Of a stretch of 64,000 bases of DNA, positions 361 to 64,000 are shown in pieces. The translations under genes and the position numbers were made by a program. The stretch comes from Actinomycetes bacterium (GTDB taxonomy: Bacteria; Actinomycetota; Acidimicrobiia; Acidimicrobiales; RAAP-2). Position 1 is the stretch's first letter. Each line of letters opens with the position of its first letter. The stretch covers positions 1 through 64,000 of the forward strand of contig JAKADK010000004.1 of assembly GCA_021820665.1 (NCBI GenBank). Direction: 5' to 3'. The notes beneath the pieces were generated by a model that saw nothing but the letters and a program-made list of their open reading frames with translations, made no database searches and was not told the origin of the DNA.

Positions 361-3300
361 ATGGGACCTTCGAAGGGTGTCGTGCGCCCAGTTGCCAATA
401 CGATTCTCGCGTTGTCGATCCTGGTTGGGGCTGGCATCGCTGGATCGCTGGCAGTGCCCAGTAGCACCTCGGCTCGGTCGCAGTCTGGTTCGGCAGGCAG
501 CGCCTCTTCTTCGACCCCATCTGGCTCTTCGACCCCATCTGGTTCGGCCAGCACTCGAACTGGAAGTCCTCGTGTAGTTGTCGCGAGTGAGGCTTCCCCG
601 ACGCACAGCGTCATGAGCCAAGTCTCTCCATCGAAGGCGGGGCCGTCGCTGGAGCGCTCTTCAGTTGGTCAGCAGCCCTTCACCCTCTCACTAGGAACTA
701 GCGGAGCGACGATTCACGGCATCCCCACCCCGGCACAGAAGCCCGGACCCACCCAGACCACCACAACGGTGAGGATTCTCGGATCTCACAGTCAAGTCGC
801 GGTTCCGGCGAATGGGACGATCCCGTATGGCGAACTACTCACCGTCGTGGCCGAGGTCGACGAGATACCGGGCAACAAGCCCGTGACCTCGGGGATGGTT
901 GACTTCACCGAGAACGGCGCCTCCGTGAAGCCCGAGTTCTCGAACTCGGCCATCTGCCAGGCGGTCCCGGTCGTGAAGGGCACTGCGTCGTGTGCGATTA
1001 CGGCCTTGGCGGCGAACTCCACCCCGTACCAGTTTGGTGCCTCGTACACCCCAGCCCAAGGGTCTCTCATCGCGAGCAAGGTGGCTTCGGCACAGGGTCC
1101 CGCGGTCACGGTAGTGAAGGCCACCACCACCCTCACGCTCTCCGGGGGACCGGACACGTCTTCTCCGGGCAACGTACGCCTTCAGGCCGTCGTGGCGAAT
1201 CGCTCGGCCGGTTCCAGCCTGGCGCCCACCGGCACCGTGTCGTTTGAGCAGGGGGGCGTCGGGCTCATCTGCGAGCAAGGGCAACCGGTGCTGAGCGAGG
1301 CCACCTCCTCGTCGTCCAGCGTGTTCTGCAATGTGCCGGCGCCGAGCGGGACCACTACCTACACGGCTCTCTACATCCCGGCCAACAGCAGCGACTTCGC
1401 CGCGTCAGGTCCGGTCTCGACGTCAGTGGCGCCCGGTACCGGGAGCGCAACGGCAGGAGGGTCTGGCGCGTCTTCGCCGGAAGCGGCTCCCGCCGGGTCC
1501 TTTGGTCCCTCGATCTTGGCTGGCACTTCCACCACTGCTACGTCATGCTCCAGCATCTTCTCCACCTTGTGGAGCGACGGTCTCTCCGGTCCCACCACTC
1601 TGACCTTCTCGCCGGGGTCGTCCGCGTTGACTTTCTTGGCGAACCTCTCCCTCACCGAGGCCCAGACCTCGGGCCAGTGCTCGCCGTCTACGAGCATCGC
1701 GTTCAGCCAGGCCTCGCTGTCGCTGGCAGGAAGCACACTGAGCGGCACTGGTCTCGGCGGGACCATCACGGACGTGGCATCAACGTCGAGCTCACCCCAA
1801 TTGTGCATCACGTCGGGCAACCTCGGGGGCGAAGCGGTGACCGTCAGCGGGAGCCTGTGCTTCTCGATCTCGACCGCGTCGGCCAGCGGCGGCACGGTCG
1901 ACAACGTGAGTAGTGCATCGCTGAGCCAGGTCGGATCGGTGAGCATCATCCCGTCAGTCCTTACTCTGTCGGGGGTGAGCGTGAACATCAGCAACGGGAC
2001 TCCCCCCTCGACCTGCACGTTGTCCTCGAGCGGTGACTGGTGGCTCTCCGTGAGCGGAAACCTGGCACTGACGCTCTCGCAGCAAAACGTCTCGGCAAGT
2101 GGGACCGCAACAGGCTGCATCGACCTCTCGACGGGTACCTCGGGTACCTTTGAACTGACCTCTGACCTAGGCTCGATATCTCTTGGTTCGACGGTCTCGC
2201 TCCAGAGCTTTGACGTGATCCTTAAATACTCGTCTGGCTCGGGATTCGCGGCACAGGGTACAGCCCTCGTAACGATTAACATGCCGAGTGGCGGACAATT
2301 ATCCACGAGTCTGACGGTCGCTTTCGATAGCTCGGGGGCCCTGGTTGTTGGCGGGCAAGCCGACCTGTCGAGTTTCCTCCCCTCATCCTTAGGGGGCACC
2401 GCGTCTGCGTACCTGTACTACGCCACCGCCGCGTATCCGAGCTTTAATACCGGGGTCAGCGCCATCGGGACAATCGACCTCGTCCCGGGCCTTAATCTCG
2501 CGTTCTCCACGAGCCTTCCGGCTTCCTTTGTTACGTCGATGCAAAACACCGTCCACATCGACATACCTCAAAAAATTCTGGCGGTCGGATCATTCGACAC
2601 CTCGACGGACACCTTTAAGCTTGCCATCACCCTTACGTTCTCCTCTCCGGTCCAGCTGTTCGACAACCAGGGCGTGGCCCTCGATCTGAACTCGGCCAGC
2701 GTGACGCTTTCGGTGAGCCCTGTGCAGGTGAGCATTAGCTTCTCTATGAAGGGGACGTTGTATCCGGACGGCACTTCTGGACAGCAAGTGGCCGTCTCCG
2801 GGACCCTCTCCGCCGTGGTCGGCAGCAGTCCCTCCGTGTCGATCAGTGTCTCGGTGAACGAATCGACGCTGGGCAAATGCGGTAGTGGCAAGGGCTGGTC
2901 CAACGCCTTCAGCGACACTGGGCTCACCGTGAAGTGCGCGGAGCTGACGGTGGGCGTGACGGACGTGTTCCCCTTCGTGAAGGGGTCCATCAACGGAGTG
3001 ATCACCCAGCTACCTACCGACATGGCCAACGCCATCGGCTACCAGCAAAACGCGCCCATCGCCTTCGCCTTCGGCTTCAACCCGTACTACTTGGACTTGA
3101 GCATCGGCACGTACGGCTCCACCACACCCGCCCTGGAACCTCTCGCCTCATTCGATAATGGGAGCTACGCTACGGACCTCCAGGTCACCTACGCGCAGCT
3201 GTGCTTCATGCAGCCTGGTGCTACGCCAGTGTCCCTGGGCGGCGGGCTGACGTGCCGCCCTGGTTACGTCCTTGGATTCTCGGCAACCATCGACGTCTCC

Positions 3301-5664
3301 GTCTTCAAGAATCCGGTCACCGTCAACGTCCTCTCGTCGATGTCGATTGGCAATCCGACGAGTTTCGACTTCAGCGCCAACATCTCTCAGATCACCGTGG
3401 GAAGTGACCTCAACGTCGGCCCGGTGACACTCGTCGTGTGCGCCAGTACGGCGCAGACCTGTGACAACAACACCTCGTACTTCCAGTTCGAATTCGATGG
3501 CTCGTTCTCGTTGAGCGGATCCGCCATCGTTCCTAAATTTGTGGAGTTGAGCGGGTCGCTGTCCATGTCGCTGAACGTGAAACTGTCCACGAGCGGGTTC
3601 ACAGCTCTCGTGTCGGGATCTGGGAGTGGGTCGATAACCTCCTGGAATGCGTTCGCCAACTGTTCGGGGAAGTGGTACAACCCCTTGACCTGGTACTGCG
3701 CCGGGGGCTGGGGAAGCACCACGAGCGTCAGTTTCACACTGGGCTCTACCGGCATCTCGGCGAACTCGACCGGAGTGACGCTGTCGGTGGATGGCACTAA
3801 CATCACCTTCCCGTTCAGCTCTGCTAGTCAGTCGGTAGTTCCCCCTCCCACCACAAGCACCACCCTCTCTTCGTCGGTGAACGGCTCGTCGTCGACCACA
3901 TCGACGTACGGGCAGCCGGTCGTGCTCACGGCCACCGTGTCCGCATCGGGGGCCACGTTCGACGGTGGCGGGTCGGTGTCCTTCTACCTTGACTCAACCA
4001 ACGGCCAATTCGCCATTCCCGGGTGCAGCGGTGCCAACGCGGTGGCGCTTCAAGACAACAGCGGGTCCTACACCGCGACGTGCACGACGTCGACAAACGT
4101 GGTTCCATCGTCGGGTGACACCATGATCCTGCCCGCCGGGTCCGATTCCGTCGTCGCCCAGTACAGTGGCAACTCGAACTTCCCCGTTTCGACGTCGAGC
4201 GCGGTGACCGAGACGGTGAACGCGGCGACCCCCACTCTGGCGATCTCCGCTACTCCGAGTCCCGACTACTACGGCCAATCGTTGACACTCTCGGTAAAAG
4301 TGTCTCCAACCGACGGTGGCGGAACGGTGACGTTCAAGGACAATGGGACGAGCATCACGGGCTGTTCCAGCCTGAAGCTCGCGGGGAACGCCGGGTTGGG
4401 CCTGGGCACCGACGACACCGCTCAGGCGTCGTGTTCCGTCGGGAACTCTTGGAACGCCGGCACGCATTCCATCACCGTCAGCTACTCGGGCGACGTCAGC
4501 GCCCTGAAGGCTCAGTCGAGCGCCGACGTTGTGGTGAAAAAGGACAACACCACGACGAGCGTGTCGGTGTCGCCGACGCAGGCGACCTACGGCAATGAGT
4601 CGGCGTCCGTCTTCACCGTGAACGTCACGACGGCTCACGGCGAGTCGCTGCCCACGACCGACAAGGTGACGGTGCACGTCGGCTCGGCCTCCTGCACGGC
4701 GTCCGTGGCCCCGTCCACCGGCGGCGGGACGGGATCGTGCTCGATCGGCGACACGGCCCTGGGAGCGAGCAGCACCGCCTATGTGGTGACCGCCACCTAC
4801 CCGGGCGACGCCGACCTAAACGCCTCCGCTCAAGCAACGGCTACCACCGGGCTCACCGTGAACAAGGACAACACCGTGACAACGGTCTCCGCCTCGCCAT
4901 CGTCGGCTCCCTACGCTTCCGAGACTGCGGTGATCTTCAGGGTCACCGTCGCCCCTCACTACGGTGAGACCGGCCCGAGTAACGAGAGTGTCACCATCAA
5001 GGTGGGTTCGACGAGTTGTCATGCCACTCTCACCGATGGCGTGGGATCGTGCAGCATCACGCCCGCGGTGCTACCCGTTGGCGGACCGTACTTGGTGTCG
5101 GTCACCTACCCTGGTGACAGCAACTTCTTCAGTTCGAGCGGCACGAACTCCTTCAGCGTGGTCACCAGTTCGATGCCCGACTGCTCGAACTACGCGGGGG
5201 CCAACTTGGCCGGTGCCGACCTGGCCGGCGCCGACCTGGCCGGCTGCAACCTCGCTGGAGCGGATCTGAAGTACGCCGATCTCGAGGGAGCGAACCTGGC
5301 TGGTGCGAACCTACAGGGCACGAACTTGAAAGGGGCCATACTCCAAGGCGACAACTTGGTCGGTGCTGACCTCCAGGGGGCGAACCTCATGGGCGACAAC
5401 GTCGAGTACGCGAACTTGCAGGGCGTCGATATGAAGCAGGCGAACCTGCAGGGTGCAAACCTCTATCTCACCTACGACTTCAGCGGAGCAAACCTTGAGG
5501 GCGTTAACTTCCAATACGCCAACCTCGCCTACGCCAACCTGGAGTACGCCAACCTGACGAATGTGAATTTCCACCACGCCAACCTGGAGTACGCCAACCT
5601 GACGAATGCCGTCATCTCGGGGACGCAGTTCCGAGGAGCCATCCTGACAGGAGTCATTACCTAA
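361..5664 (+). CDS. Giant secreted protein: Ig-like domains, beta-rich core, pentapeptide-repeat tail
   Basis: A 1767-residue exported protein. The start is supported by an AGGGGGG ribosome site 6-7 nt before ATG. Residues about 13-33 are a hydrophobic signal segment, followed by a Ser/Gly/Thr linker. Residues about 130-340 look like two bacterial Ig-like domains (TTTVRI..., TTTLTL... strands). Residues about 385-1150 are a Ser/Gly/Val/Thr-rich beta region of no named family that is clearly homologous to the core of the protein at 59613-64000 (shared YLYYA, GTIDL, SIGT..TPALEP, FEFDGS and FTLG motifs). Residues about 1160-1600 hold four more Ig-like repeats. Residues about 1607-1767 are roughly 30 pentapeptide repeats of A(N/D)LxG type, predicting a right-handed beta-helix tail. 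No LPXTG or C-terminal membrane helix is visible, so it is probably released or held non-covalently. Its base use is less G+C-biased than its neighbours. Function is unknown; adhesion or surface structure is inference. Confidence 0.85.
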   Translation: MGPSKGVVRPVANTILALSILVGAGIAGSLAVPSSTSARSQSGSAGSASSSTPSGSSTPSGSASTRTGSPRVVVASEASPTHSVMSQVSPSKAGPSLERSSVGQQPFTLSLGTSGATIHGIPTPAQKPGPTQTTTTVRILGSHSQVAVPANGTIPYGELLTVVAEVDEIPGNKPVTSGMVDFTENGASVKPEFSNSAICQAVPVVKGTASCAITALAANSTPYQFGASYTPAQGSLIASKVASAQGPAVTVVKATTTLTLSGGPDTSSPGNVRLQAVVANRSAGSSLAPTGTVSFEQGGVGLICEQGQPVLSEATSSSSSVFCNVPAPSGTTTYTALYIPANSSDFAASGPVSTSVAPGTGSATAGGSGASSPEAAPAGSFGPSILAGTSTTATSCSSIFSTLWSDGLSGPTTLTFSPGSSALTFLANLSLTEAQTSGQCSPSTSIAFSQASLSLAGSTLSGTGLGGTITDVASTSSSPQLCITSGNLGGEAVTVSGSLCFSISTASASGGTVDNVSSASLSQVGSVSIIPSVLTLSGVSVNISNGTPPSTCTLSSSGDWWLSVSGNLALTLSQQNVSASGTATGCIDLSTGTSGTFELTSDLGSISLGSTVSLQSFDVILKYSSGSGFAAQGTALVTINMPSGGQLSTSLTVAFDSSGALVVGGQADLSSFLPSSLGGTASAYLYYATAAYPSFNTGVSAIGTIDLVPGLNLAFSTSLPASFVTSMQNTVHIDIPQKILAVGSFDTSTDTFKLAITLTFSSPVQLFDNQGVALDLNSASVTLSVSPVQVSISFSMKGTLYPDGTSGQQVAVSGTLSAVVGSSPSVSISVSVNESTLGKCGSGKGWSNAFSDTGLTVKCAELTVGVTDVFPFVKGSINGVITQLPTDMANAIGYQQNAPIAFAFGFNPYYLDLSIGTYGSTTPALEPLASFDNGSYATDLQVTYAQLCFMQPGATPVSLGGGLTCRPGYVLGFSATIDVSVFKNPVTVNVLSSMSIGNPTSFDFSANISQITVGSDLNVGPVTLVVCASTAQTCDNNTSYFQFEFDGSFSLSGSAIVPKFVELSGSLSMSLNVKLSTSGFTALVSGSGSGSITSWNAFANCSGKWYNPLTWYCAGGWGSTTSVSFTLGSTGISANSTGVTLSVDGTNITFPFSSASQSVVPPPTTSTTLSSSVNGSSSTTSTYGQPVVLTATVSASGATFDGGGSVSFYLDSTNGQFAIPGCSGANAVALQDNSGSYTATCTTSTNVVPSSGDTMILPAGSDSVVAQYSGNSNFPVSTSSAVTETVNAATPTLAISATPSPDYYGQSLTLSVKVSPTDGGGTVTFKDNGTSITGCSSLKLAGNAGLGLGTDDTAQASCSVGNSWNAGTHSITVSYSGDVSALKAQSSADVVVKKDNTTTSVSVSPTQATYGNESASVFTVNVTTAHGESLPTTDKVTVHVGSASCTASVAPSTGGGTGSCSIGDTALGASSTAYVVTATYPGDADLNASAQATATTGLTVNKDNTVTTVSASPSSAPYASETAVIFRVTVAPHYGETGPSNESVTIKVGSTSCHATLTDGVGSCSITPAVLPVGGPYLVSVTYPGDSNFFSSSGTNSFSVVTSSMPDCSNYAGANLAGADLAGADLAGCNLAGADLKYADLEGANLAGANLQGTNLKGAILQGDNLVGADLQGANLMGDNVEYANLQGVDMKQANLQGANLYLTYDFSGANLEGVNFQYANLAYANLEYANLTNVNFHHANLEYANLTNAVISGTQFRGAILTGVIT
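508..543 (+). repeat. 18-bp tandem duplication in the linker of the giant secreted gene
   Basis: The unit TCTTCGACCCCATCTGGC occurs at 508-525 and, with one change, at 526-543. It keeps frame and repeats six linker residues (SSTPSG) just after the signal segment. Confidence 0.85.
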
Positions 5665-49361: not shown

Positions 49362-49511
49362 CCCGCACACGAGCCGACCGATAGCGGGTCGCGGCGGGTC
49401 GCCGACCACCCTCGGGGCCGCGGACTGGCTAACGTGCCTCCCGGCCGGTGGGGAAGGTGATACGACCGCCGCCTGCCCACCAGGATCCGACCGACAACGA
49501 AGGAGCTCGTG

Positions 49512-50774: not shown

Positions 50775-50780
50775 ACCCCC

Positions 50781-50810
50781 CGGGTCATCCGGGTCATCCG
50801 GGTCATCCGG
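50781..50810 (+). repeat. 9-bp tandem repeat just after the carboxypeptidase stop
   Basis: CGGGTCATC repeats three times plus a partial copy, beginning 6 bases after the TAG. It is non-coding and might lie in the 3' untranslated region. Confidence 0.88.
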
Positions 50811-50877
50811 CGGCTCGGCCGCGCCTCCCACCGTGCCGGCCGTCATCGACGGGACCTGCAGGCGCTACCGTGGGGCG

Positions 50878-51603
50878 ATGTCCTGTGACTGGGGTACCCT
50901 GGCCGCCACCATCACCGAGGCGCTCCATCTCGAGGTGCCGCCTGTGGCGATCACCTTTGCCGACGAGGTCCCAGACGGCGTTCCCTCGTTCGATGCGCCG
51001 ATGAGCGAACCCGCGGCGGACGGTCGTCGCGGCAGGGTGCCCGCCGGTTGCGTGTTCTGGGTGCACGCGCTGGCAACGACGTTCTCGACTGCGCCGGAGG
51101 ACCACGGCAACTGCAGTGTGGGATCGCTCACCCATGGCGTGAAGAGCGTCGACGAGGTCGCCGGGAACGACGACGTCGCGGCGTTGCTCAGTTCGGGATG
51201 GGTCACGATGGAGATGGTCCCGGGGATCCCGACGGTCACGGAGAGGCCGACGTCGATCGTCTACGGGCCACTGGCAGAAAGCCCGCTCGACCCCGATGTC
51301 GTGCTCCTGCGGGTCAACGGGCGCCAGCTGATGGTCCTGTCCGATGCCATTCCCCACCTCCAGATCGAAGGGAAGCCGCAGTGCCACATCGTCGCCGTCG
51401 CCAAGGAGCACGGCGTCTCGGCGGCGAGCGTCGGTTGCGCGCTGTCGCGGGCCCGGACGGGGATGCAGGCCCATGAGATGACCTGTGCGATTCCCGCCGG
51501 GGAGCTACCCGAGGTTGTCCGGCGGGTGGTGGCCACGGCCGAGGTCGACACGACGGTGGCACGGTACGCAGCGCGGGACGCGCGAAGGTTCGCCCCGTCC
51601 TGA
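50878..51603 (+). CDS. DUF169-family protein
   Basis: 241 residues from ATG 50878, six bases after TACCGT (50866-50871). Family features are LHLEVPPVAITFADEVPDGV near the start, AGCVFWVHA, GNCSVGSLTHG, IVYGPL, PQCHIVAVAKEH and a GCALSRARTGM segment. Conserved cysteines in these blocks suggest metal or cluster binding, as discussed for the DUF169 family, but the activity is not known. It is a stand-alone gene between the carboxypeptidase and the convergent acyl-CoA synthetase. Confidence 0.82.
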   Translation: MSCDWGTLAATITEALHLEVPPVAITFADEVPDGVPSFDAPMSEPAADGRRGRVPAGCVFWVHALATTFSTAPEDHGNCSVGSLTHGVKSVDEVAGNDDVAALLSSGWVTMEMVPGIPTVTERPTSIVYGPLAESPLDPDVVLLRVNGRQLMVLSDAIPHLQIEGKPQCHIVAVAKEHGVSAASVGCALSRARTGMQAHEMTCAIPAGELPEVVRRVVATAEVDTTVARYAARDARRFAPS

Positions 51604-51783
51604 CCGCCAGCCCGCGCGAGGTCGCCCGACGGGTCTTGCTCCCGGGTCGCCGCCACTCCCGCCTGGCCCCGCATGGTGACCCCACGGCAGACCAGGGCCC
51701 GGACGTCCTGGCCCGAGCACGGGGTCGGTGGCGGGAGATCCTCGAACTGTTGCCGCCCCCCGCAGCACAACCCAACCGGGCAG

Positions 51784-53436: not shown

Positions 53437-53581
53437 GCTCCTACTCTGCGGCAGGTGCCGCCACGGACGCAAGCGCGCGGGACGACGGACGGGACGGCGG
53501 ACGGGACGGAGCGGAGAACGGCGAGAAGCCGCTCGCAGGCTCCATCACCTGATGGCCACCGACCTGTGGACGCCACTGTTC

Positions 53582-53629
53582 CTCCGGCGTGCCATGTGCC
53601 ACCGTCTCCGGCGTGCCATGTGCCACCGT
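53582..53629 (-). repeat. 24-bp tandem duplication after the rmlD-like stop
   Basis: CTCCGGCGTGCCATGTGCCACCGT in two copies (53582-53605, 53606-53629). On the minus strand it starts about 28 bases past the rmlD stop, in the spacer before the acyl-CoA synthetase gene. Confidence 0.9.
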
Positions 53630-53657
53630 CTCGCCGAGCCGACCGCGGCAGGGCCCG

Positions 53658-54689
53658 TCACGGGCGATGGAGACGTCGCGCGACGAGGGCGTCCACGAGG
53701 CGACCGAGACCATCCTCCCAGGCTGGTAGGAGGGACAACCCCGACAGCGCGAGCGCCATGTTGGCCAGGGCGGAGTTGGCGGGGCGGCGCGCCGGCCTTG
53801 GCGGGTGCTGGTCCGCGGTTGCCATCGGCTCCACCCGGCCGGGGTCGCCGCCCGAGGCGTCCAGGACGGCACGGGCGAAGTCGAACCACGACGTCACGCC
53901 CTGGTTGGTCACGTGGAAGATGCCGGGGCGGCGCTCGATCGCCAGGTCTGCGAGGACGCCCACGACGTCTGACGTGAACGTGGGGCAACCGGTCTGGTCG
54001 TCGACGAAGTGAAGCGTCCCGGGTGTCGAAGCCAACCGGAGGATCGTCTTCACGATGTTCGCCCCGTGGAAGCCAGAGAGCCACGAGACGCGCACCACCG
54101 TCGCTCCCGGGCAGGCACCCAGCACCTCGATCTCTCCGGCCCGCTTGGAACGCCCGTACACCGACACCGGATTGGGATGGTCCCACTCGACGTACGGGCA
54201 CGGCGACGTTCCGTCGAACACGTAGTCAGTGGAGATGTAGCACACATGTGCACCTGCCCTGGCGGCGGCCTCGGCGATGTGGCGGGTCCCCAGGGCATTG
54301 ACGGCGAAGGCCGTGTCGGGCTGCGCCTCGCACACGTCGACGGCAGTGACGGCGGCGCCGTGGATGATGACGTCGGGGCGAGCGCCCGCCACGAAGGAGA
54401 GCACCGCCTCCCGGTCGGTGATGTCGAGCTCGGGGAGGCCCGTGGCCACGACCTCCACCGGTGCGCGCCTGCCCAGGTTCCCGGTACGCGGGTCGCCCAC
54501 CAGACCGGCGACCGGGACCTTCCCCCGAAGGGCGTCGACCAGGTCGGTGCCGAGCTGGCCACGCGCGCCGGTCACCATCACCTTGGTGCCCGCCGAAGGC
54601 AGGGTCACCGCCTGCACGGCTCCGTCGGACCGCCCTCCGTCCCCCGCTGACCGAACATGGCGTTCTCCGTGCGGGGTGGCGAGCTCCAC
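53658..54689 (-). CDS. rmlD: dTDP-4-dehydrorhamnose reductase-like protein (RmlD type)
   Basis: 343 residues from GTG 54689; a GTG at 54608 would give the more usual N-terminus just before KVMVTGARGQLGTDLV. SDR-type Rossmann motif GxxGQLG, then DVIIHGAAVTAVDVCEA, the active site STDYVFDG and YGRSK (Tyr/Lys), and NPVSVYGRSKRAGE. It reduces a 4-keto-6-deoxyhexose to complete dTDP-L-rhamnose. It follows the glycosyltransferase-methyltransferase gene by 10 bases, probably as one operon. RmlA and RmlB are not in the window. Confidence 0.86.
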   Translation of the reverse strand: MELATPHGERHVRSAGDGGRSDGAVQAVTLPSAGTKVMVTGARGQLGTDLVDALRGKVPVAGLVGDPRTGNLGRRAPVEVVATGLPELDITDREAVLSFVAGARPDVIIHGAAVTAVDVCEAQPDTAFAVNALGTRHIAEAAARAGAHVCYISTDYVFDGTSPCPYVEWDHPNPVSVYGRSKRAGEIEVLGACPGATVVRVSWLSGFHGANIVKTILRLASTPGTLHFVDDQTGCPTFTSDVVGVLADLAIERRPGIFHVTNQGVTSWFDFARAVLDASGGDPGRVEPMATADQHPPRPARRPANSALANMALALSGLSLLPAWEDGLGRLVDALVARRLHRP

Positions 54690-54699
54690 CGGGCCGTGG

Positions 54700-56196
54700 T
54701 CAAGCCGGCTCCAGCTCGAAGACGTACTGGTAGGAGAAGAGCTTCGGGAGGATCGCCAGGCCCAGCCGGTCGAGCACGCCTGCGGTCCTCAGGACCTTGG
54801 AGGGGACAGGTCCACCCCGCTTCGCCACCTCGAGCGGGAGCCCGGTGTTGCTCACGCTCCGCACACGTGTTCCCGCCCGTCTGGCCATGCGGGCGAAGCT
54901 CTTGTCGGTGAAGAAGCGCATATGCCCGACGTCGAGCACGCCTCGGACGTCGTAGTCGAAGGTACCCGTGGCCATGCGGAACCGGGGATACCAGTGCGCG
55001 ATGTTGGGGACCGTGGCGATGATCACGCCCCTCGGAGCGAGGATGCCGACGAGCTCGGAGAGCAGCTGGTCCGGTTTGGCCAGATGTCCGAACACGTCGG
55101 CTGCGACCACGACGTCGAAGTCTTGACCCACCTCGGTGGGAAGCCCCTGGTTCAAGTCGGCTTCCACGAACGTGTCGAGGCGGTCGCCAACCCCGTCGAC
55201 CTTCTCAGCGTCCACACCCACGACCGTGTGACCCTGCAGGCGCAACATCTCGCCGAACCGGCCGTGCGAGCAGCCGAGGTCGAGGATCTTCTTCGGCTTC
55301 TCTCCGGGTTTCGTCTCCCCGATCATGGCGAGGATCTTCAGATGCGAGGAGACGCTGAGGACGCTCCGGTCGTACCCCTGGTCGGCGAACGCCAGCTCGC
55401 CCGAACCGAACCCCATCTTGTGCGCACGGTAACGAGTGGTGTACCAGACGACGTCCTTGGCGTACTGCATGCCATTGACGTAACAGATCTCGTCCCCGTA
55501 GTAGGTCGGGATCGGGATCTCCGTGATGGTCTTCCCCGCCTCGTGTAGCTGCACGATGATCTCCGTGTCGAAATCGAAGCCTTCTGAATTCGATTCGAAG
55601 GGGATCTCCTCCAGGGCGCTCACCCGGTACGCACGGTACCCGCTGTGCCACTCGGTCAGGTTCAGACCGACCACGGCGTTCTCGTACGTGGTGAGGATGC
55701 GGTTGCCGACGTACTTGTAGAGCGGCATGCCGCCCCTGCGGGCAGCGCCCGGCACCATCATGCGGGAACCGAACACCGCGTCGCACCGGCCTGCCTCGAG
55801 GGGGGCGACGATGTCCTCGATGATCTCCGGGGCGTACTGGCCGTCGCCGTGGAGCATCACGACGATGTCGATGTCGTGGTCGATGGCCCATCGGTACCCG
55901 GCCTTCTGGTTGCCGCCGTACCCGCGGTTCTTCGCGTTGCGGATGATCGTGACCGGGAGGTCGTCCGTCTCTCCGTACTCCTCGGCCAGCTCGTAGGTAC
56001 GATCACTGCTGGCGTCGTCACAGATGACCACCGCCGCTACCCGCTGACGGAACGACTGAGGGATACGGTCGAGCGTGGGGGCCAGTGTGGCGGCCACGTT
56101 GTACGCGGTGACCACCACGGCGATCCGTTCGCCCACCTCCGTACCGGCGTCCAACGGATCGCCCTTCGCGTCGCCTGGTCCTCTGTTCTCCTTCAC
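54700..56196 (-). CDS. GT2 glycosyltransferase fused to SAM methyltransferase
   Basis: About 498 residues from the GTG at 56196 (AAGGAGG upstream); a GTG at 56232 would add 12. Residues about 20-265 are a family-2 glycosyltransferase of the dolichyl-phosphate mannose/undecaprenyl type: AVVVTAYNVAATL, VICDDASSDRTYELAEEYG, NRGYGGNQKAGYRWAID and HGDGQYAPE, whose DGQ motif is the metal and sugar-nucleotide site. From about 290 on is a class I methyltransferase: KILDLGCSHGRFGEMLRLQG, VGVDAEKVDGVGD, DFDVVVAADVFGHLAKPDQL. No transmembrane helix is seen. The fusion suggests that one protein both makes and methylates a glycan or lipid-linked sugar. Confidence 0.87.
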   Translation of the reverse strand: MKENRGPGDAKGDPLDAGTEVGERIAVVVTAYNVAATLAPTLDRIPQSFRQRVAAVVICDDASSDRTYELAEEYGETDDLPVTIIRNAKNRGYGGNQKAGYRWAIDHDIDIVVMLHGDGQYAPEIIEDIVAPLEAGRCDAVFGSRMMVPGAARRGGMPLYKYVGNRILTTYENAVVGLNLTEWHSGYRAYRVSALEEIPFESNSEGFDFDTEIIVQLHEAGKTITEIPIPTYYGDEICYVNGMQYAKDVVWYTTRYRAHKMGFGSGELAFADQGYDRSVLSVSSHLKILAMIGETKPGEKPKKILDLGCSHGRFGEMLRLQGHTVVGVDAEKVDGVGDRLDTFVEADLNQGLPTEVGQDFDVVVAADVFGHLAKPDQLLSELVGILAPRGVIIATVPNIAHWYPRFRMATGTFDYDVRGVLDVGHMRFFTDKSFARMARRAGTRVRSVSNTGLPLEVAKRGGPVPSKVLRTAGVLDRLGLAILPKLFSYQYVFELEPA

Positions 56197-56373
56197 CACC
56201 CCTCCTTCTCGCCGTGCTCCATAGAGCGTCACCGCGTCCGGTCTCCGACAGTCCCGGCCGCATCGTCACGCCGGACGCAACCGTCGCAACGGCGACCGCA
56301 TGATCTCGGCGCCGCCCCGGAGACGCGCGGGCTCTGCCCGCATCTCTCCGGGCCTCTGCGCGCAGCCCAGTGG

Positions 56374-56425
56374 ATCATATGATAGGTCATCAACTTGACA
56401 TAGAGTCAAGCACCCAACATAGAGT
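56374..56425. promoter_or_regulatory. Divergent regulatory region with nested symmetric elements
   Basis: Between the two halves of the sugar locus lies an AT-rich patch. It contains a perfect 10-bp palindrome ATCATATGAT (56374-56383), an inverted repeat CTTGAC/GTCAAG (56394-56399 and 56405-56410), and a direct repeat ACATAGAGT (56398-56406, 56417-56425) spaced 19 bases. TTGACA at 56395-56400 could be a -35 box, with TAGAGT (56420-56425) as -10 at a long 19-base spacing. The 350 bases from 56197 to 56550 hold no gene. Confidence 0.45.
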
Positions 56426-56550
56426 GTACAACCAAGATCGGGCGGCCGGTGCAACCTCCGTGTGGCCGGGAGCGAGGCGCGGGAGCGGCTGGCCGGCACG
56501 GGGGAGCCCGGGCCTGCGCGACGGACCCGTCGGGAAGAGAGGGGGGGGCT

Positions 56551-57576
56551 GTGCGAGAGAACCGAGTGCTCATCACGGGCGGTGCCGGGCTCGTGGGGTC
56601 GACCTTGGCAGACCAGCTCGTGGACCTGGATGTGGGCGAGATCATCGTGGTCGACGACTTCACCCGCGGCAGCTGGGAGAACCTGGCAGGTGCCCGAGCG
56701 GCCGGTCGGGTCAGCGTCGTCGAAGGCGATGTCGCCGACCGGCACCTCATGGCCAAGCTCATGGAAGGCATCGACTTCGTCTTCCACCAGGCCGGCATCA
56801 AGATCAAGCAGTGCGCCGAGGACCCGGCAGCCGCGATGCACGTCATGGTGGACGGGTCGTTCTGCGTGCTCGAAGCTGCCCGGCACGCCGGAGTGCAGAA
56901 GGTGATCGCGGCCTCGACCGCGTCGATCTACGGGGCGGCAGAGGTCTTCCCGACCGACGAGCGGCACCATCCCTACGGCAATCGCACCCTTTACGGTGGA
57001 ACGAAGCTGTTCCTGGAGCAGCTCCTCCGGAGCTACAACGACAGCTACGGCCTGCCGTACGTCGCGCTGCGCTACTTCAACATCTACGGTCCCCGGATGG
57101 ACACCTACGGTGCGTACACCGAGGTCTTGAGCCGATGGATCGAACGCATCGAGCAGGGCATGCCCCCGGTGGTCCATGGCTCCGGAGCACAGACGATGGA
57201 TCTCGTCTATGTCGAGGACGTCGCCCGTGCGAACATCCTCGCCGCCCAATCGGATGTCACCGACGACGTGTTCAACGTGGCCAGCGGCACCGAAGTGAGC
57301 CTCGTCGATCTGGCGAACCTGTTGCTCCGGGTCATGGGCTCCGACCTCACCCCCCAGCACGGTCCCGATCGGGCGCTCCCTGCGGTACCCCGGCGGCTGG
57401 CCGACACGTCCCGCTCCGCCGACCGGCTCGGCTTCGAGGCGAAGATCGACCTCGAGGACGGGTTACGGCGGCTGGTGTCGTGGTGGACGACGCGGCCGGG
57501 ACGGTCGAGTGGCTGTCCGACGGCCGGATCACGGAACGGCCACGCGCCGAAACCTGCAGGTCACGCCAATCCCTAG
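56551..57576 (+). CDS. NAD-dependent sugar-nucleotide epimerase/dehydratase
   Basis: 341 residues from GTG 56551, with GAGAGGGGGGG upstream. Extended-SDR pattern: VLITGGAGLVGSTLADQLV (NAD loop GxxGxxG), IIVVDDFTRGSWENL, DFVFHQAGIKIKQCAEDP, ASTASIYGAAEVF, and the active-site TLYGGTKLFLEQ (Tyr-x3-Lys), then ALRYFNIYGPRMD. It resembles UDP-glucose 4-epimerase and GDP-sugar enzymes. With the RmlC-like gene 11 bp downstream it forms the plus-strand arm of the divergent sugar locus. The exact sugar nucleotide is undetermined. Confidence 0.9.
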   Translation: MRENRVLITGGAGLVGSTLADQLVDLDVGEIIVVDDFTRGSWENLAGARAAGRVSVVEGDVADRHLMAKLMEGIDFVFHQAGIKIKQCAEDPAAAMHVMVDGSFCVLEAARHAGVQKVIAASTASIYGAAEVFPTDERHHPYGNRTLYGGTKLFLEQLLRSYNDSYGLPYVALRYFNIYGPRMDTYGAYTEVLSRWIERIEQGMPPVVHGSGAQTMDLVYVEDVARANILAAQSDVTDDVFNVASGTEVSLVDLANLLLRVMGSDLTPQHGPDRALPAVPRRLADTSRSADRLGFEAKIDLEDGLRRLVSWWTTRPGRSSGCPTAGSRNGHAPKPAGHANP

Positions 57577-57587
57577 GAGGTCAGCCG

Positions 57588-58139
57588 ATGCCCCGTATCG
57601 AGCACGCAGAGAAGATCATCGGCGTGGTCCTCGTCGAACCCGAGGTCCACGGGGACGACCGCGGCCGGTTCGTCGAGACCTACCGGCGCTCGTGGCTTCC
57701 CTTCGCGAGGGAAATGGTCCAGGGGAACCGCTCCGAGAAGCGGGCCGGTGCGGTGGTCGGGCTGCACTACCACGTCCACCAGGCTGACTACTGGTACCTC
57801 CTGAGAGGAAGCGCTCGGGTCGTGCTCCACGATCTGCGGCTCGGATCACCGACCGACGGGAGGACGATGCACATCGACCTCGACGGCCAGGTGGAGCGAG
57901 GGTTGTTCATCCCGCCCGGGGTCGCCCACGGGTTCGCATCGCACACCGACCTGCTCTTGTCCTACCTGGTCGACAACTACCACAATCCCGCCGACGAGCT
58001 GGGCGTGGCCTGGGACGACCTCGATATCGCCGCCGACTGGGGGGTGACCGACCCGGTCCTCTCGGACCGCGACAAGAAGAACCCCAGCCGAGCAGACATC
58101 CCCGACCACCTCCGGCCCCGCTACGGCCTCCGAACGTGA
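57588..58139 (+). CDS. rmlC: dTDP-4-dehydrorhamnose 3,5-epimerase-like protein (RmlC type)
   Basis: 183 residues, ATG 57588 with a perfect AGGAGG (57575-57580) overlapping the previous stop region. Cupin segments of RmlC: DDRGRFVETYRRSWLP, GAVVGLHYHVHQADYWYLLR with the active-site His, VERGLFIPPGVAHGF and LLSYLVDNYHNPADELGVAWDD. It epimerises C3 and C5 of a 4-keto sugar. Length and motifs are normal, although the family's usual RGIHY reads GLHYH here. Paired with the SDR epimerase and, across the divergent promoter, with the rmlD-like gene. Confidence 0.86.
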   Translation: MPRIEHAEKIIGVVLVEPEVHGDDRGRFVETYRRSWLPFAREMVQGNRSEKRAGAVVGLHYHVHQADYWYLLRGSARVVLHDLRLGSPTDGRTMHIDLDGQVERGLFIPPGVAHGFASHTDLLLSYLVDNYHNPADELGVAWDDLDIAADWGVTDPVLSDRDKKNPSRADIPDHLRPRYGLRT

Positions 58140-58218
58140 GCTGCGAAAGATCGCCGAACGGCTACGACTCCACGCCGCTGGGACATCTAGCGGGCCAGTG
58201 CCCGCGGGCTGTCGCCGT

Positions 58219-58262
58219 CGCTTCGCCGGTCGCCGTGGCTCCGCCCGAAGCCGGGCGAAGCG
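58219..58262. terminator. Long hairpin between rmlC-like and the convergent secreted gene
   Basis: CGCTTCGCC (58219-58227) and GGCGAAGCG (58254-58262) form a perfect 9-bp stem with a 26-base loop. It is a candidate bidirectional terminator between convergent genes. The same spacer (58140-58414) also carries a 16-bp direct repeat CGCCGGTCGCCGTGGC and no gene. Confidence 0.4.
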
Positions 58263-58414
58263 AACACCGCCGGTCGCCGTGGCCGTTCCCGGCAGCCGGG
58301 AGGCCCGGGCGACATGTCGGCTCCTTGGTCAGCCAGCTCGGCAACAGAGAGCAGACGCACAAGACCCGAGGCGACGGAGCGTCCGAGACGCGTGCAGACG
58401 CTCCGGGCACCCCC

Positions 58415-59374
58415 TCAGCAGGCGTAGTCGCCGTCGTCCGGATGACCGAACCACTGCGTCACCGTGACCTTGCCGCCGGTGAACGACGCCTGAGCACAGT
58501 TGGCCTCCGCTCCGGAGAGATCCCGTGCTCCGGGGATCCAGTTGGGGATCTGGAACAGCGTGCCCGATGCGGAGTTGGTGCCACCCGTGATGCTGTCCCA
58601 CTGGCTGGACGTCGAGTACGCGCCCACCGAGGTCGCCCCGGCTGCCTCCAGTCCGGCGATCATGCCCTGGAGGTCGGCGACGTTCATCGTCAGATCGGAC
58701 TGCCAGGTGTTCGCGGTCTCCACGTCCAGCCACCACGGGTAGCTTCCCGCTCCACCGGACACTGGCACCGGCGGCGATTGGGCGTCGATGGCCGATGCCG
58801 CTTCGGCAAGCCAGGTGACGTCTTGGGCCGCCTTGTTGTCCCCGTACTGCCAGGCGCAGGCGTCGGAGTTGGCGCCCACCGTGTACGTGCCCCCGTTCAC
58901 CGTTACCGTGGTCGTCAGGCAGTCGCCATATGGGGTGCTCCCTGAGGTGGGCCAGTCGGCGATCACCGTGCTACCGGAGACGTTTCCCGGGTCCGCGGTG
59001 TTGACGTACAGGGACGCTTTGGGCTGGCTGGTCCCCCCTACGGTAGAGGCGACTGCCCAGTACAGCTCGCTCGCGGTGTAGGCGGGGTAGGCCGACGACG
59101 GCCCAAAGCACGGGTTCAGATCGTTGGCCAGTCCACCGGTCACGCCGACGATGCCAAAGGCAGGGCTTGCGGGGAGATTGCTTCCGCATTGCGGATATGA
59201 CACGTCGTTGCCGGTCGGCGTCACGGTTCCGCCGCCACCGCCGCCGCCACCCCCGCCATGACCCGACGGTTTCGCAGCGAAAGCCGGGGTGGCACTCCCG
59301 ACGATGACCGCGACGACGATGACCAAGTGGAGCACGACGCGAGTAGCCCGTCTCCCGACCGTTCGCTTGCCCAT
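58415..59374 (-). CDS. Secreted GH25/DUF1906-like TIM-barrel protein
   Basis: 319 residues from ATG 59374, with GAAGGAG upstream. Signal peptide (KRTVGRRATRVVLHLVIVVA... ATPAFA) followed by a run of ten glycines as linker. The domain begins GNDVSYPQCGSNLP and shows NPCFGPSSAYP, ELYWAVAST, ASLYVNTADPGN, WWLDVETANTWQSDL, VGAYSTSSQWDSIT and a C-terminal TVTQWFG. These resemble lysozyme-like (GH25-type) or DUF1906 hydrolase folds, where Asp/Glu of LDVE would be catalytic. It is the immediate neighbour of the giant Kelch protein gene, so it might act on the cell wall around it; that link is inference. Confidence 0.72.
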   Translation of the reverse strand: MGKRTVGRRATRVVLHLVIVVAVIVGSATPAFAAKPSGHGGGGGGGGGGTVTPTGNDVSYPQCGSNLPASPAFGIVGVTGGLANDLNPCFGPSSAYPAYTASELYWAVASTVGGTSQPKASLYVNTADPGNVSGSTVIADWPTSGSTPYGDCLTTTVTVNGGTYTVGANSDACAWQYGDNKAAQDVTWLAEAASAIDAQSPPVPVSGGAGSYPWWLDVETANTWQSDLTMNVADLQGMIAGLEAAGATSVGAYSTSSQWDSITGGTNSASGTLFQIPNWIPGARDLSGAEANCAQASFTGGKVTVTQWFGHPDDGDYAC

Positions 59375-59405
59375 GTCGTTCGTCTCCTTCGTGGGAAGTG
59401 GCCCG

Positions 59406-59411
59406 ATAGTA
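59406..59411 (-). promoter_or_regulatory. -10 box of the secreted TIM-barrel gene
   Basis: TACTAT on the minus strand, about 30 bases before the ATG. With the GAAGGAG site this gives a normal leadered mRNA, unlike the leaderless genes. The 240-base spacer (59375-59612) holds no supportable gene. Confidence 0.45.
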
Positions 59412-59612
59412 GACGAGCGTCGCCGGTCGATGCCTTGGCGACCGCCACTACGGAGACCACGGGCAGGCGCCGGGCTGCCGCCGTCATCACGGCGGTGTCA
59501 ACGGTCTGGCCGAAGAGGTCGTCGGCGTCGAGGAAACCGGAGGCCGAGTGTGAGCCTGCCAGCGTTCCTCCGGAGCCTGCCAGCGCTCCCCCGAAGGGGC
59601 CAGCGGAGACCG

Positions 59613-62600
59613 TCAGGACTGCCGGGCCCGGCGGAGGCGGCGGCGATAGCCGACCACGTTGGCGACCACCAAGCCGAGGAGGGCTGCTCCGGCCAGGGAC
59701 CCGAAGAGCAGGGCGAAGCCTCCTGCCCCGAAGCCTCCTGCCCCGAAGCCTCCTGCCCCGAAGCCTCCTGCCCCGGAGCCTCCTGGCCCGGAGCCTCCTG
59801 CCCCGAGCCTGCCCGACCCGGCGACCGGCGGTGTCCCGACCGGCAGTGCGACCTGGTCGGTGGCGGTCGCCGTGTAGAGCTCGGACGAAGTCGGCGTCGC
59901 CAGGGAGCCGGACCCTTCGACGACGCCCCCGGTGACCAGCACCTGCCCGTTCGAGAGGGCCACCACGGCGGCACCTGCCCGGGCGGTCGTCAGCGAGCCC
60001 GCGCTCGTCCACGCGCCGGTGGCCGGGTCGTAACGCTCGACCGAGGCCAGGGCGCGGCCAGCGGTTTGCCCGCCGACTGCCAGCACCTCTCCGTCGGCCA
60101 GCGTGACGACGCCGGGGAGAACCGGGGCGGTCGCCATCCCGTTGGTGGCGCGCCACGAGTTCGTCGTCGGGTCGTACCGGTCAGCGGCATTCCCGTCGCC
60201 GACCACCAGCACGTCGCCTCCGTGCAGGACCGTGGCCACGGCCAGCAGCCTCGGTACGCTCATGGTCCCAGCGGGAGACCACCGGCCCGTCGTCGGGTCG
60301 TAGCGCTCGGCCGTGGCCAGGGCGCCGCCGCCGTCGAAGCCGCCCGCCACCAACGCTCCGCCGTCGGGCAGCGGGGCCGCGGCAGCCGTCACGCGAGGCG
60401 TCGCCAGCGAGCCTGTCCGCGCCCACCGGCCCGTCACCGGGTCGTAGACCTCGGCGCTGGCGAGCGGTCGGTGACCAGCGCCCTCACCGCCGGCAACCAG
60501 CACCCGGCCGCCGGCGAGGACGACGACCGAGGCGAACGCCCGGGCGGTGGCGAGCGAGCCGACGGCCGACCACGAGCCGGTGGCCGGGTCGTAGACCTCG
60601 GCGGACGCGAGCGGTTGGTGGTCGGAGCCGAGCCCACCGGCGACCAGCACGTCACCACCGGGCAGCCTGGCCGTCGCCGCACCGACCCGCGGCGTACCGA
60701 GCGACCCCGTCGCCGACCAGCGGCCCGTCACCGGGTCGTAGACCTCGGCGGAGGACACGGCGGCACCGGTCGAGCCGACGCCGCCGGCGACCAGCACGTC
60801 ACCACCGGGCAGCCTGGCGACGGCACCGAACCCGTGTCCACCGGCCAACGACCCGGTCGGAGACCACGTCCCCTGGGGCACGCCCGCTCCGGTAGAGGCC
60901 GGCGACCCGCCATTCGGCACTACCTGGGCGGCAGGGTCCTGTGGGGCGACGATCACCCGTTGGACAGGCGACGAGGGGCTGCCCGGGGTGCCGCCCTGTG
61001 CACCGGTACCCCCCGAGGCTCCAGGACCGGGTGGCGGGAAACCGAGAGACGGAGCAGTGACGAGGACCGCCCGGCCGGCGCGCCGCACGCGAGCCACCAC
61101 GTGGATGGGCCCGGCCGGCGCCGGCTCCCCTGTGCCCGCAGGCATCCGGTAGGCGACGAGGGCCACGGATGACGGCATCCCCCTGCCCGCCCCGCCGGCC
61201 GGACCGATCCGATCGACGAGCACGGGGGCGGTTGCTCCGGCCGGCATACCGCGCTCCGATCGGGTGGTCCGGCCTCCGCTGACGTCAGCGGTGACGACCG
61301 ACACCGAACCGCTGTAATCGAAGGTGATGGAGTAGCCGTCGGCCTCGAGCGTCACGCCGCTCCCGTCGACCGAGAACCCGGTCTTACCGAGCGTGAAGGA
61401 GGACGAGGTCCCCTCCCACTGGTAGTCGCACGGTTTGGGGATCCACCCGTCGATGTAGCAGACCTGCGTGGCCACGTAGGACGCCACCTCGACGGAGACG
61501 CTTCCCCAGATGAAGGCGCTGATGCCGCTCGTGCTGACCTTGATGGAGACCGACGCCGACAGCGAGCCCCCGACCTCGAGGTCGGGACCGATCTGGGTGC
61601 TGCCCGGGCCGAGGGAGAGGGAGCCGTCGAACTCGAACTTGAACGTGGTCGCCGACGCCTCGAGCGTGATGCTGACCGGTCCGATGCTCAGGCCGCCCAC
61701 GCTGATCTGGGACACCGATCCCGTGAAGTTGATGCTCGGCGGAGACAGCCCGATGTTGGCGAGCACCGAGATCTGGATGCCCTCGACGCTGCCCTGGAAC
61801 CCGAGCCCCAGGCCCGCCGGGTACGTGGTGGTCCCGATCGTGGCGCCCTCGGGGGAGATGTAGAGCGACGCGTAGTCGACCTCGAGCAGGCTGGCCTGCC
61901 CGAAGTCCTTGAACGGCTCGAGGGCCGGCGTGCCCGAGTTCTTCGTACCGATGCTGAGGTCGAGGAGGAACGGGTTGAAGTTGAAGGCGAAGGTGATCGG
62001 GGCGCCCTCGAGGTAGCCGATGGTGGTCGCCACGTTGCTCGGCAGGGCGGTGATCGTGCCGTCGAGGCCGACGTTGGGAAGCGGCACGCCGTCGCCGATG
62101 CTGATCCCTCCCTGGAGACCCGCGCACTCGATGGTGAGCCCGCTGATCCCGAAGGCGTCCTGCCATGCCGTGGACGGGTCGCCGCAGGTCCCGAACGACA
62201 GGCTCACGTTGATCCCCGTGTCGCTCACGGTCAGCTCACCGGTCAACTGGTGCGACGACGACGCACCGATCGAACCGGGTGAGGCGACGTTGAGCGTGGC
62301 GGTCATGCCCACCGAGAAGGTCGGCCCGGCCGGGCTCAGCTCCACCTGGAGAAAGCCCGAGTCGAGCTTGAGCGAGCTGCCGCCGGTCGAGAAGACGGTG
62401 AGGCCCGAGCTGAGGGAGGTCGAGATCCGGAGCGTGTAGGTGTTCGTCTGGAAGTCGGCGGTGCCGACGGCGACGAAGTCCGCCGCCGACAACACGTCGA
62501 TGCCGATGGCCGAGAGGCCCGAGGTGACCGACCCGGGCAGCGAGATGTTGAGGGCGAAGTCGAGCCCCTGGTTGAGGTCGATCGTCCCCAGCGTCGGGTC

Positions 62601-64000
62601 ACCCGTCTGGAAGGCGGGCACGGCGGCGCTCGCGTAGTAGAGGTACGCCGTGTCGCCGCTCGAGCCGAGCCACTGCGAGAGGTTGGCCTCGGTGCCCACC
62701 ACGAACGTCCCACCCGTGCCGATCTGGAGGGCGGCGTTCAAGACGAGGGACCCGCCCCCGGGCATCTGGACCGTGAGGACGAGGTGCGCGGCGACCTGGT
62801 AGGACCCCTTGGACTCGCTCAGAGTGAACGTCGGCGCACCAAGCTCGACGGCGCCCCCGGCGACGCTGGCGGAGAGCTGGCTCAACGTGGCCGAGAGCGA
62901 AAAGCTCCCGGCGGTGAGGTCGAAGCACCCGCTGGCCGCCGCCGAGCCGGAAAAGCCGGTGAGCGAGACGCCGAGCGACCCCGACACGGCGAGCCACAGG
63001 TCTCCGGCTGCGGCGATGGTGCACCCCGACGGGGGCGCGGCGTCCCCCAGCTGGACGGAGTCGACGGCGAGCGACACGCCACCGGTGGCCAGTGAGAACA
63101 GTGGGTTGCTGCCGGCGCCTGTCGCCGACAGGGCGAAGGTGACCACGCCGCTGGTGTCGCTGATCGTCCCCGACAGCGCGGCGTCGATGGTGACCGACGG
63201 GGCCGGTTGCCACACCTGGGCCTGGGCGGCGGCCACGGTCAGGCTCCAGGTTTCGAGTGACGAGAGCGTCCCGTCCAGCGACAGCGAGCCGAGGCCGTCC
63301 ACCGACAGGGTGCCGGTGACCGCGAGCCCGGAGGTACCCAGCGAGAGCCCGACGTCGGTCAGGGTGACCGGGACTCCCGGGAACGGCGTGAAGGGTCCGG
63401 CGATGGGGCCGGGCGTGCATGACGACCCCGACGGCTGGCACGTCGTGACGTCCGCGGTCACCGATCCCTGGGCGCTCCGCGACACGGTGCCCTGGAGGCC
63501 GACGGCGACGCCGAAGACGACGAGGCCGCTGACGGTCGCCTTGCCCGAGAAGGACCCGTCGGCGAGCCCGATGTCGGCGTCGAGGGCGACGGTGGCCGGT
63601 GCCTGCCCGGGGACGGGGATCACCCCCGACACGGCGAGCGACAGTTCGCCCGACGAGAAGGACAAGGTGGCGCCGGTCAGGGCGGCGCCGTCGGGGAGCG
63701 TGAGGAAGGGGAAGCCGGACGGCGCCTGGAGGTCGGCCGTGAAGGTGGGCGACGAGCCCGGGTTCCAGCTCCCGCTGAAGGTGATCGTCCCTCCGGAGGG
63801 CAGGGTGAACCCCGCTGTCTCGAGCGTCGAGACGACCCCTGCCGACGGGGCGTAGGCGGCGTCTGCGTTGAACCCCTGGGCCAACGACACCGTGCCGATT
63901 GCCGTGTCGCCGGTATCGAAGGTGGCGACGGGCGCCGACGAGTACGCGAAGAAGCCCTGGAGGGGGACGCCGAGCTTGGAGAGGTCGATGCCGGCGACGG
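59613..64000 (-). CDS. Giant surface protein: beta-rich core, Kelch propeller, C-terminal membrane anchor (partial)
   Basis: The frame is open to the right edge, so the start lies outside the window; at least 1462 residues are present. An internal GTG at 63890 is not a credible start, because the upstream codons encode an FFAYSSAPVATFDTGD motif that recurs about 400 residues later as YLYYASAAVPAFQTGD. The region 64000-61300 is homologous to the core of the protein at 361-5664. A Pro/Gly linker (about 61290-60890) is followed by seven Kelch-type repeats (LPGGDVLVAGG..., AEVYDPVTGRWS), about 60890-59870, which would close a seven-blade beta-propeller. The tail has GAGGF repeats, one membrane helix (LLFGSLAGAALLGLVVANVV) and a basic end (RRRLRRARQS). 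No LPXTG is present, so it is probably anchored by the helix itself. Role unknown. Confidence 0.85.
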   Translation of the reverse strand, partial: VAGIDLSKLGVPLQGFFAYSSAPVATFDTGDTAIGTVSLAQGFNADAAYAPSAGVVSTLETAGFTLPSGGTITFSGSWNPGSSPTFTADLQAPSGFPFLTLPDGAALTGATLSFSSGELSLAVSGVIPVPGQAPATVALDADIGLADGSFSGKATVSGLVVFGVAVGLQGTVSRSAQGSVTADVTTCQPSGSSCTPGPIAGPFTPFPGVPVTLTDVGLSLGTSGLAVTGTLSVDGLGSLSLDGTLSSLETWSLTVAAAQAQVWQPAPSVTIDAALSGTISDTSGVVTFALSATGAGSNPLFSLATGGVSLAVDSVQLGDAAPPSGCTIAAAGDLWLAVSGSLGVSLTGFSGSAAASGCFDLTAGSFSLSATLSQLSASVAGGAVELGAPTFTLSESKGSYQVAAHLVLTVQMPGGGSLVLNAALQIGTGGTFVVGTEANLSQWLGSSGDTAYLYYASAAVPAFQTGDPTLGTIDLNQGLDFALNISLPGSVTSGLSAIGIDVLSAADFVAVGTADFQTNTYTLRISTSLSSGLTVFSTGGSSLKLDSGFLQVELSPAGPTFSVGMTATLNVASPGSIGASSSHQLTGELTVSDTGINVSLSFGTCGDPSTAWQDAFGISGLTIECAGLQGGISIGDGVPLPNVGLDGTITALPSNVATTIGYLEGAPITFAFNFNPFLLDLSIGTKNSGTPALEPFKDFGQASLLEVDYASLYISPEGATIGTTTYPAGLGLGFQGSVEGIQISVLANIGLSPPSINFTGSVSQISVGGLSIGPVSITLEASATTFKFEFDGSLSLGPGSTQIGPDLEVGGSLSASVSIKVSTSGISAFIWGSVSVEVASYVATQVCYIDGWIPKPCDYQWEGTSSSFTLGKTGFSVDGSGVTLEADGYSITFDYSGSVSVVTADVSGGRTTRSERGMPAGATAPVLVDRIGPAGGAGRGMPSSVALVAYRMPAGTGEPAPAGPIHVVARVRRAGRAVLVTAPSLGFPPPGPGASGGTGAQGGTPGSPSSPVQRVIVAPQDPAAQVVPNGGSPASTGAGVPQGTWSPTGSLAGGHGFGAVARLPGGDVLVAGGVGSTGAAVSSAEVYDPVTGRWSATGSLGTPRVGAATARLPGGDVLVAGGLGSDHQPLASAEVYDPATGSWSAVGSLATARAFASVVVLAGGRVLVAGGEGAGHRPLASAEVYDPVTGRWARTGSLATPRVTAAAAPLPDGGALVAGGFDGGGALATAERYDPTTGRWSPAGTMSVPRLLAVATVLHGGDVLVVGDGNAADRYDPTTNSWRATNGMATAPVLPGVVTLADGEVLAVGGQTAGRALASVERYDPATGAWTSAGSLTTARAGAAVVALSNGQVLVTGGVVEGSGSLATPTSSELYTATATDQVALPVGTPPVAGSGRLGAGGSGPGGSGAGGFGAGGFGAGGFGAGGFALLFGSLAGAALLGLVVANVVGYRRRLRRARQS
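59715..59805 (-). repeat. 15-bp tandem repeat encoding the Gly-rich tail
   Basis: GAAGCCTCCTGCCCC repeats four times exactly (59715-59774), then as variants. On the coding strand it encodes GAGGF units directly before the membrane helix, a flexible stalk at the cell surface. Confidence 0.9.

Follow-up and report, generated by a model that had tools for sequence, protein, structure and literature searches.

The window, a stretch of 64,000 bases that makes up the first part of the 72,037-base contig G000:C8, holds at its right edge a giant gene on the reverse strand, whose product we term P0003, and near its left end a gene on the forward strand for a protein with part of the same core, the left protein P0002. 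Completed from the contig past the window edge, the right-edge ORF has a stop-to-stop frame of 3,211 residues; we read P0003 as 3,128 residues from a provisional start codon, its size being ~3,130-3,200 residues depending on that codon. From the N-terminus, P0003 displays a hydrophobic segment, a glycine-rich region, Big_3_5 Ig-like repeats (six stretches by Pfam), the core, Kelch repeats, a glycine-rich linker and a C-terminal helix (~3095-3116 by eye), with an Arg-rich tail at its end. A similar hydrophobic C-terminal segment with a basic tail is seen by eye in 9/9 long orthologs, and from these hydrophobic ends, read by eye, P0003 is probably an exported protein with a C-terminal membrane anchor. 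Its closest named record is the Actinomycetes metagenome bin HSP2.bin32, with 89% identity across the C-terminal half of the core. At the DNA level, a 15-base tandem repeat of 6.5 copies (59714-59810, reverse strand) codes for the glycine-rich linker before the C-terminal helix, and the Kelch-coding DNA (60551-60866, reverse strand) has a tandem period of 147 bases with ~80% matches, so that, in contrast to the core units, these repeats seem to have been copied recently.

We divide the core into N0 (P0003 residues 1174-1315), B1 (1316-1560), A1 (1565-1750), B2 (1755-1990), A2 (2000-2185), Ct1 (2186-2340) and Ct2 (2341-2574), which are followed by the Kelch repeats (2705-3055). The parts encoded in the window are collected in Table 1.

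Table 1. Core parts and adjoining features of the left and right-edge proteins, in window positions
Feature	Position	Strand	Basis
N0 of left protein P0002	1546..1962	+	profile match
Single A of left protein, motif YLYYATAAYPSFNTG	2035..2604	+	profile match
Ct1-Ct2 of left protein	2608..3846	+	profile match
C-terminal hydrophobic helix, then Arg-rich tail (probable membrane anchor)	59652..59717	-	by eye from sequence
Kelch repeats	59835..60887	-	Pfam Kelch_1 E 1.3e-46
Ct2, unduplicated, most conserved core part	61278..61979	-	mean pairwise identity 0.64, nine orthologs
Ct1, unduplicated, conserved	61980..62444	-	mean pairwise identity 0.60, nine orthologs
A2, second half of unit copy 2, motif YLYYASAAVPAFQTG	62445..63002	-	A1/A2 hhalign; unit model match 62445-63710
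B2, first half of unit copy 2, ~236 aa	63030..63737	-	B1/B2 hhalign
Unit copy 1, in-window end (second half of A1, motif FFAYSSAPVATFDTG)	63750..64000	-	unit model match G000:C8:63753-65054

The sequence-only reading of the window had noticed a motif that recurs in the right-edge protein, and both copies lie where it placed them: FFAYSSAPVATFDTGDTAIGT is encoded at 63953-63891 and YLYYASAAVPAFQTGDPTLGT, 436 residues from it, at 62645-62583, both on the reverse strand. It had also proposed a self-dotplot, in which off-diagonals at about 400 residues would speak for a duplicated domain and a lone motif match against it. When the 1,401-residue core is compared with itself, the best diagonal is indeed at offset 436 (62 residues ungapped, score 78), above the maxima of 49-70 in ten local shuffles and of at most 67 in 20 controls. 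The longer gapped self-alignment of the single sequence is borderline: its score of 161, compared with a shuffle mean of 117, is matched by 4/300 local shuffles and 1/300 full shuffles, and the dotplot test is thus unsettled with one sequence.

With ortholog profiles, the evidence for a tandem repeat becomes decisive, and these comparisons confirm that the core of P0003 carries two head-to-tail copies of one ~430-residue unit, B1-A1 followed by B2-A2, with offsets of 436-447 residues between the copies and a gap of ~14 residues. Two separate internal homologies, A1/A2 and B1/B2, emerge from profiles of six orthologs. With nine orthologs, hhalign aligns A1 with A2 (short-form A included) at probability 98.6 and E 1.2e-15 over 171 columns and B1 with B2 at probability 98.8 and E 1.4e-16 over 207 columns; 0/100 column shuffles attain either score, and the reversed-profile controls score 19.9 vs 99.8 for A1/A2 and 29.4 vs 111.2 for B1/B2. 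The strictest test of homology was a copy-2 model made from other genera only and searched against copy 1. In P0003, it yields a single alignment from model position 15-423 to residues 1-433 of copy 1 (E 2.8e-16 in a 1,000-sequence search), and such models match copy 1 end to end in 4/4 proteins tested (E 2.8e-16, 5.8e-17, 8.8e-14 and 1.9e-12), with reversed sequences and 50/50 shuffles per protein all negative. An A2-Ct model free of any copy-1 sequence likewise finds A1 here (E 7.1e-11) and in the genome G389 (E 4.2e-14; G390, G392 and G510 were left out of the full reading of this search). Further confirmation of the doubling comes from outside: a profile made from the 85-residue repeats of distant relatives (see below) aligns with the B profile at E 5.5e-10 and hits the nine-ortholog core twice, at E 2e-4 and 3e-4, in places ~433-441 columns apart. 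Within one protein, the copy-1 unit is 24-31% identical to its own copy-2 unit.

The sequence-only reading had the whole core built of ~400-residue repeats; the tandem duplication of a long domain holds, with the spacing given above, whereas N0 and Ct1-Ct2 are not detectable copies. Its suggestion that the missing 5' part may hold more copies did not survive, as the unit model has exactly two matches in the complete gene (Table 1). Copy 1 runs on beyond the window edge, its model match reaching contig position 65054; the 5' part thus completes this copy, and further towards the N-terminus come N0 and then the Ig-like and glycine-rich regions. The unit-model counts give the number and borders of the units and not their homology, because the model contains the copies. 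The unduplicated N0 has ~140 residues, and Ct1-Ct2, also unduplicated, ~390 residues after A2. N0 was considered as an extra B and rejected, as it scores under its best shuffles against the unit model in both proteins and has an hhalign probability of 1.7 against B; the score of that N0/B comparison, 20.1, is slightly higher than the 60-shuffle maximum of 18.1, and there may be a very remote link between the two. A reading of Ct1-Ct2 as a third copy was likewise not supported, with hhalign probabilities of 0.9-16.9 against A and B. Weak cross-similarities between B and A (probability 44) and between Ct1 and Ct2 (probability 41) are stronger than in the corresponding reversed and shuffled controls and may reflect an older common sub-repeat.

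The left protein was said to have one clear copy of the motif, and YLYYATAAYPSFNTG is located there once, at 2410-2454 on the forward strand. No B half was detected in its core between N0 and A, which lie ~25 residues apart. Such short forms, with N0-A-Ct1-Ct2 and no match to B, number eight proteins from seven genomes, the left protein included; the set also includes L043, which is truncated by its contig end. They differ from the long orthologs in having no B, not in another count of units. Short-form A scores higher with the A2 model than with the A1 model, and its branching point in the tree has low support. At its C-terminus, the left protein has a pentapeptide-repeat domain (window 5185-5658, forward strand), a feature common to several short-form relatives.

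Among 172 genomes of the family, 21 gave matches in a protein search; these relatives lie at 24 places, 22 of which were read as whole ORFs (G130 and G126 were left out). The nine long orthologs come from four families: six belong to the source family, and three further families in the order contribute one each. The order N0-B1-A1-B2-A2-Ct1-Ct2-Kelch is conserved in 9/9 (with a partial N0 match in L074), each with exactly two units. The unit model matches twice in each of the genomes G324, G331 and G389; across wider samples, it matches 8/397 genomes of the order, four of them with two whole units, and 6/395 of the class (G1082 was left out of the full reading). In the trees, copy 1 stands apart from copy 2, with support of 1.000 for the A1 clade and for the B1/B2 split; each copy follows its own tree, and the duplication therefore predates the nine orthologs. 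Mean pairwise identity climbs along the core, from 0.37 in N0 through 0.47-0.49 in unit 1 and 0.56 in unit 2 to 0.64 in Ct2.

Beyond these, 21 distant proteins were compared with the core parts at E < 0.01: Ct1 and/or Ct2 is matched in 20, B in 14 and A in two, and 0/21 have two B matches ~430 residues apart. To judge from their profile matches, the stretch duplicated in P0003 is extended in another way in some distant relatives, through tandem repeats of 85 residues that correspond to one part of B. The B matches recur every 85 residues in L076 and L077, L044 and L049 display arrays of 85 and 92 residues, L051 and L047 have internal offsets of 98 and 140-150 residues, and a DNA array of period 255 is found in some of these relatives. 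An offset of 366 residues in L081 scores 111 vs controls of at most 52; that of 429 residues in L087 scores 70 vs controls of 73 and is thus not above them. The lineage-specific repeats in or near the core lie at 1019-1269 of the core region in L047 (140-150 residues) and at 1928-2371 in L081 (366 residues). In a relative in the same order (L079 and L080, G507:C21), the open frame spans 8,231 residues, of which the first 3,462 include 28 fn3 stretches.

In composition, the core is rich in glycine (14.1%), serine (13.4%) and threonine (12.1%), with 20 K+R vs 89 D+E and a hydrophobicity period of ~2.0-2.2 residues. Its 14 cysteines form seven close pairs. Cysteine is found in 9/9 orthologs at nine of these columns (P0003 residues 1174, 1544, 1555, 1993, 2025, 2272, 2292, 2514 and 2524) and in 8/9 at three (1217, 1260 and 1287, for one of which the residue of the ninth ortholog is unread); both members of the pair 1854/1861 are present in 6/9 and absent in 3/9. 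An all-beta structure is predicted for the core, whose cysteine pairs are conserved. No Pfam or NCBIfam family convincingly matches it across 18 aligned members (best Pfam E 0.0075 in one member, best NCBIfam E 0.008 in two of the 18 scanned). The search of PDB sequences with the core gave 0 matches, phage and plasmid records gave none, and no published account of the core was found in the open-licence PMC full text searched. By these comparisons, the duplicated core belongs to a family absent from the public domain libraries searched. AF2 models are beta-meanders with strands linked by short turns, and by their confidence (pLDDT 43 for B2-A2-Ct and 61 for A alone) they are too weak to name a fold. 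With these low-confidence models, Foldseek found no match against PDB at E <= 0.001, and Foldseek and VIA together gave no significant neighbor, only generic antiparallel sheets, an absence that does not in itself establish a new fold.

We consider it rather probable, taking the whole reading together, that one old in-frame B-A duplication became fixed at two in an exported and anchored protein, whose core serves as a stalk or scaffold rich in beta structure and stapled by disulfides. Of this reading, the history is shown by the data: the second unit arose by a single in-frame tandem duplication before the split of the four ortholog families, and since then the copy number has remained constant at two with each copy diverging separately. 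Because the copies are just ~24-31% identical, they may now do different things. A stalk or scaffold is the most likely role of the core, as far as models and composition go; the doubled unit would lengthen the stalk and keep the arm of Ig-like and glycine-rich regions at a distance from the cell, and the most conserved task would fall to the membrane-proximal parts, Ct1-Ct2 and the Kelch repeats. Fibrillar adhesin-like proteins are described as long multidomain surface proteins in which Ig-like domains recur and the C-terminus holds an anchor region (PMC8286594). P0003 resembles them in being long and multidomain with repeated stalk-type domains, given its ~3,130-3,200 residues, six Big_3_5 stretches and doubled 430-residue unit, and its probable C-terminal anchor would fit the same description (PMC8286594). 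It differs from that description in a core domain found in no family library searched and in Kelch repeats that adjoin the probable anchor (PMC8286594). No known adhesive domain was identified in P0003, whose Pfam matches above cut-off are of the Kelch-type and Big_3_5 families only.

A broader reading, which we advance tentatively and at somewhat less than even chances, is that N0-B-A-Ct1-Ct2 constitutes an undescribed family of beta-rich modules of actinobacterial giant surface proteins, lengthened by lineage-specific nested duplications. The levels of such nesting would be the B-A unit copied once for good, an 85-residue piece of B copied 4-5 times and, in proteins of the left-protein type, B absent. 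If true, the core would be a rod whose length depends on which nested level gets copied.

The main rival to the stalk, which we regard as unlikely, is a binding module in the form of an amphipathic, open beta-sheet (a beta-belt or groove) for a hydrophobic ligand or glycan, doubled to gain surface. The strong two-residue hydrophobic alternation and the long antiparallel meander of the AF2 models are consistent with it, as are the best structural neighbors, which are open or barrel-like sheets: the apolipoprotein B belt, autotransporter barrels and LptD share with the low-confidence model a long antiparallel beta-meander with tight turns, but there is no significant structural or sequence match to any of them. 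The best Foldseek match (E 1.5e-3, TM-score 0.14) is not significant, the VIA match (Z 8.3, rmsd 6.5 over 157 aligned) is about at the level typical of a best match, the models themselves are of low confidence and hydrophobic alternation is found in almost all beta proteins. Neither AsmA nor chorein, of the AsmA/TamB/VPS13-like repeating beta-groove lipid bridges, is among the Pfam matches, and the structure model is weak.

Far less probable is a length-varying device in the manner of Periscope Proteins, in which the unit number would change quickly to alter reach. Periscope Proteins are characterized by highly similar tandem repeats of changing number (PMC8201768). P0003 shares with that description tandem domain repeats within a surface protein, and differs from it in a repeat number fixed at two and in strongly diverged copies (PMC8201768). 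The 85-, 92- and 98-residue repeats by which some distant relatives extend the same stretch, with the 255-base array period, would fit such a device, which may apply to the 85-residue arrays of other lineages. For the 430-residue unit the idea fails because the number is fixed (two in 9/9 long orthologs) and the copies have diverged; their 24-31% protein identity and separation in trees also make recombination between them unlikely. The doubling, judged across the orthologs, is thus a fixed structural duplication and not a length-varying device. Finally, that there is no true repeat, and that two unrelated G/S/T-rich beta stretches share a motif through chance or composition, has a negligible probability: G+S+T make up 40% of the core and 4/300 local shuffles equal the gapped single-sequence score, but this is contradicted by the profile tests with their reversed and shuffled controls, refuted by the copy-2-model test and at odds with the outside 85-residue profile, which hits both copies at the correct spacing.

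With these results, an anonymous 1,400-residue stretch becomes a defined module with borders, copies, an age and conserved cysteine pairs, and can therefore be cut into expressible pieces. Duplication of a unit is in itself an ordinary event in proteins like P0003; here, an old fixed duplication can be told apart from the fast length variation of some repetitive bacterial surface proteins, and duplication can be compared within one family at two nested scales.

Gene neighborhoods gave no functional clue among the eight loci compared. For two ORF regions among the window neighbors at 48,000-59,600, relatives lie next to the L031 copy; the seven other loci, several of which have little flank, show none. 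About 1.5 kb past the end of the giant gene and convergent with it lies a 589-residue ORF with a dTDP-4-dehydrorhamnose 3,5-epimerase domain (window 56370-58139, forward strand). Upstream of the giant gene lies an ankyrin-repeat ORF (L003:10507-11481, reverse strand), which overlaps a longer ORF on the opposite strand.
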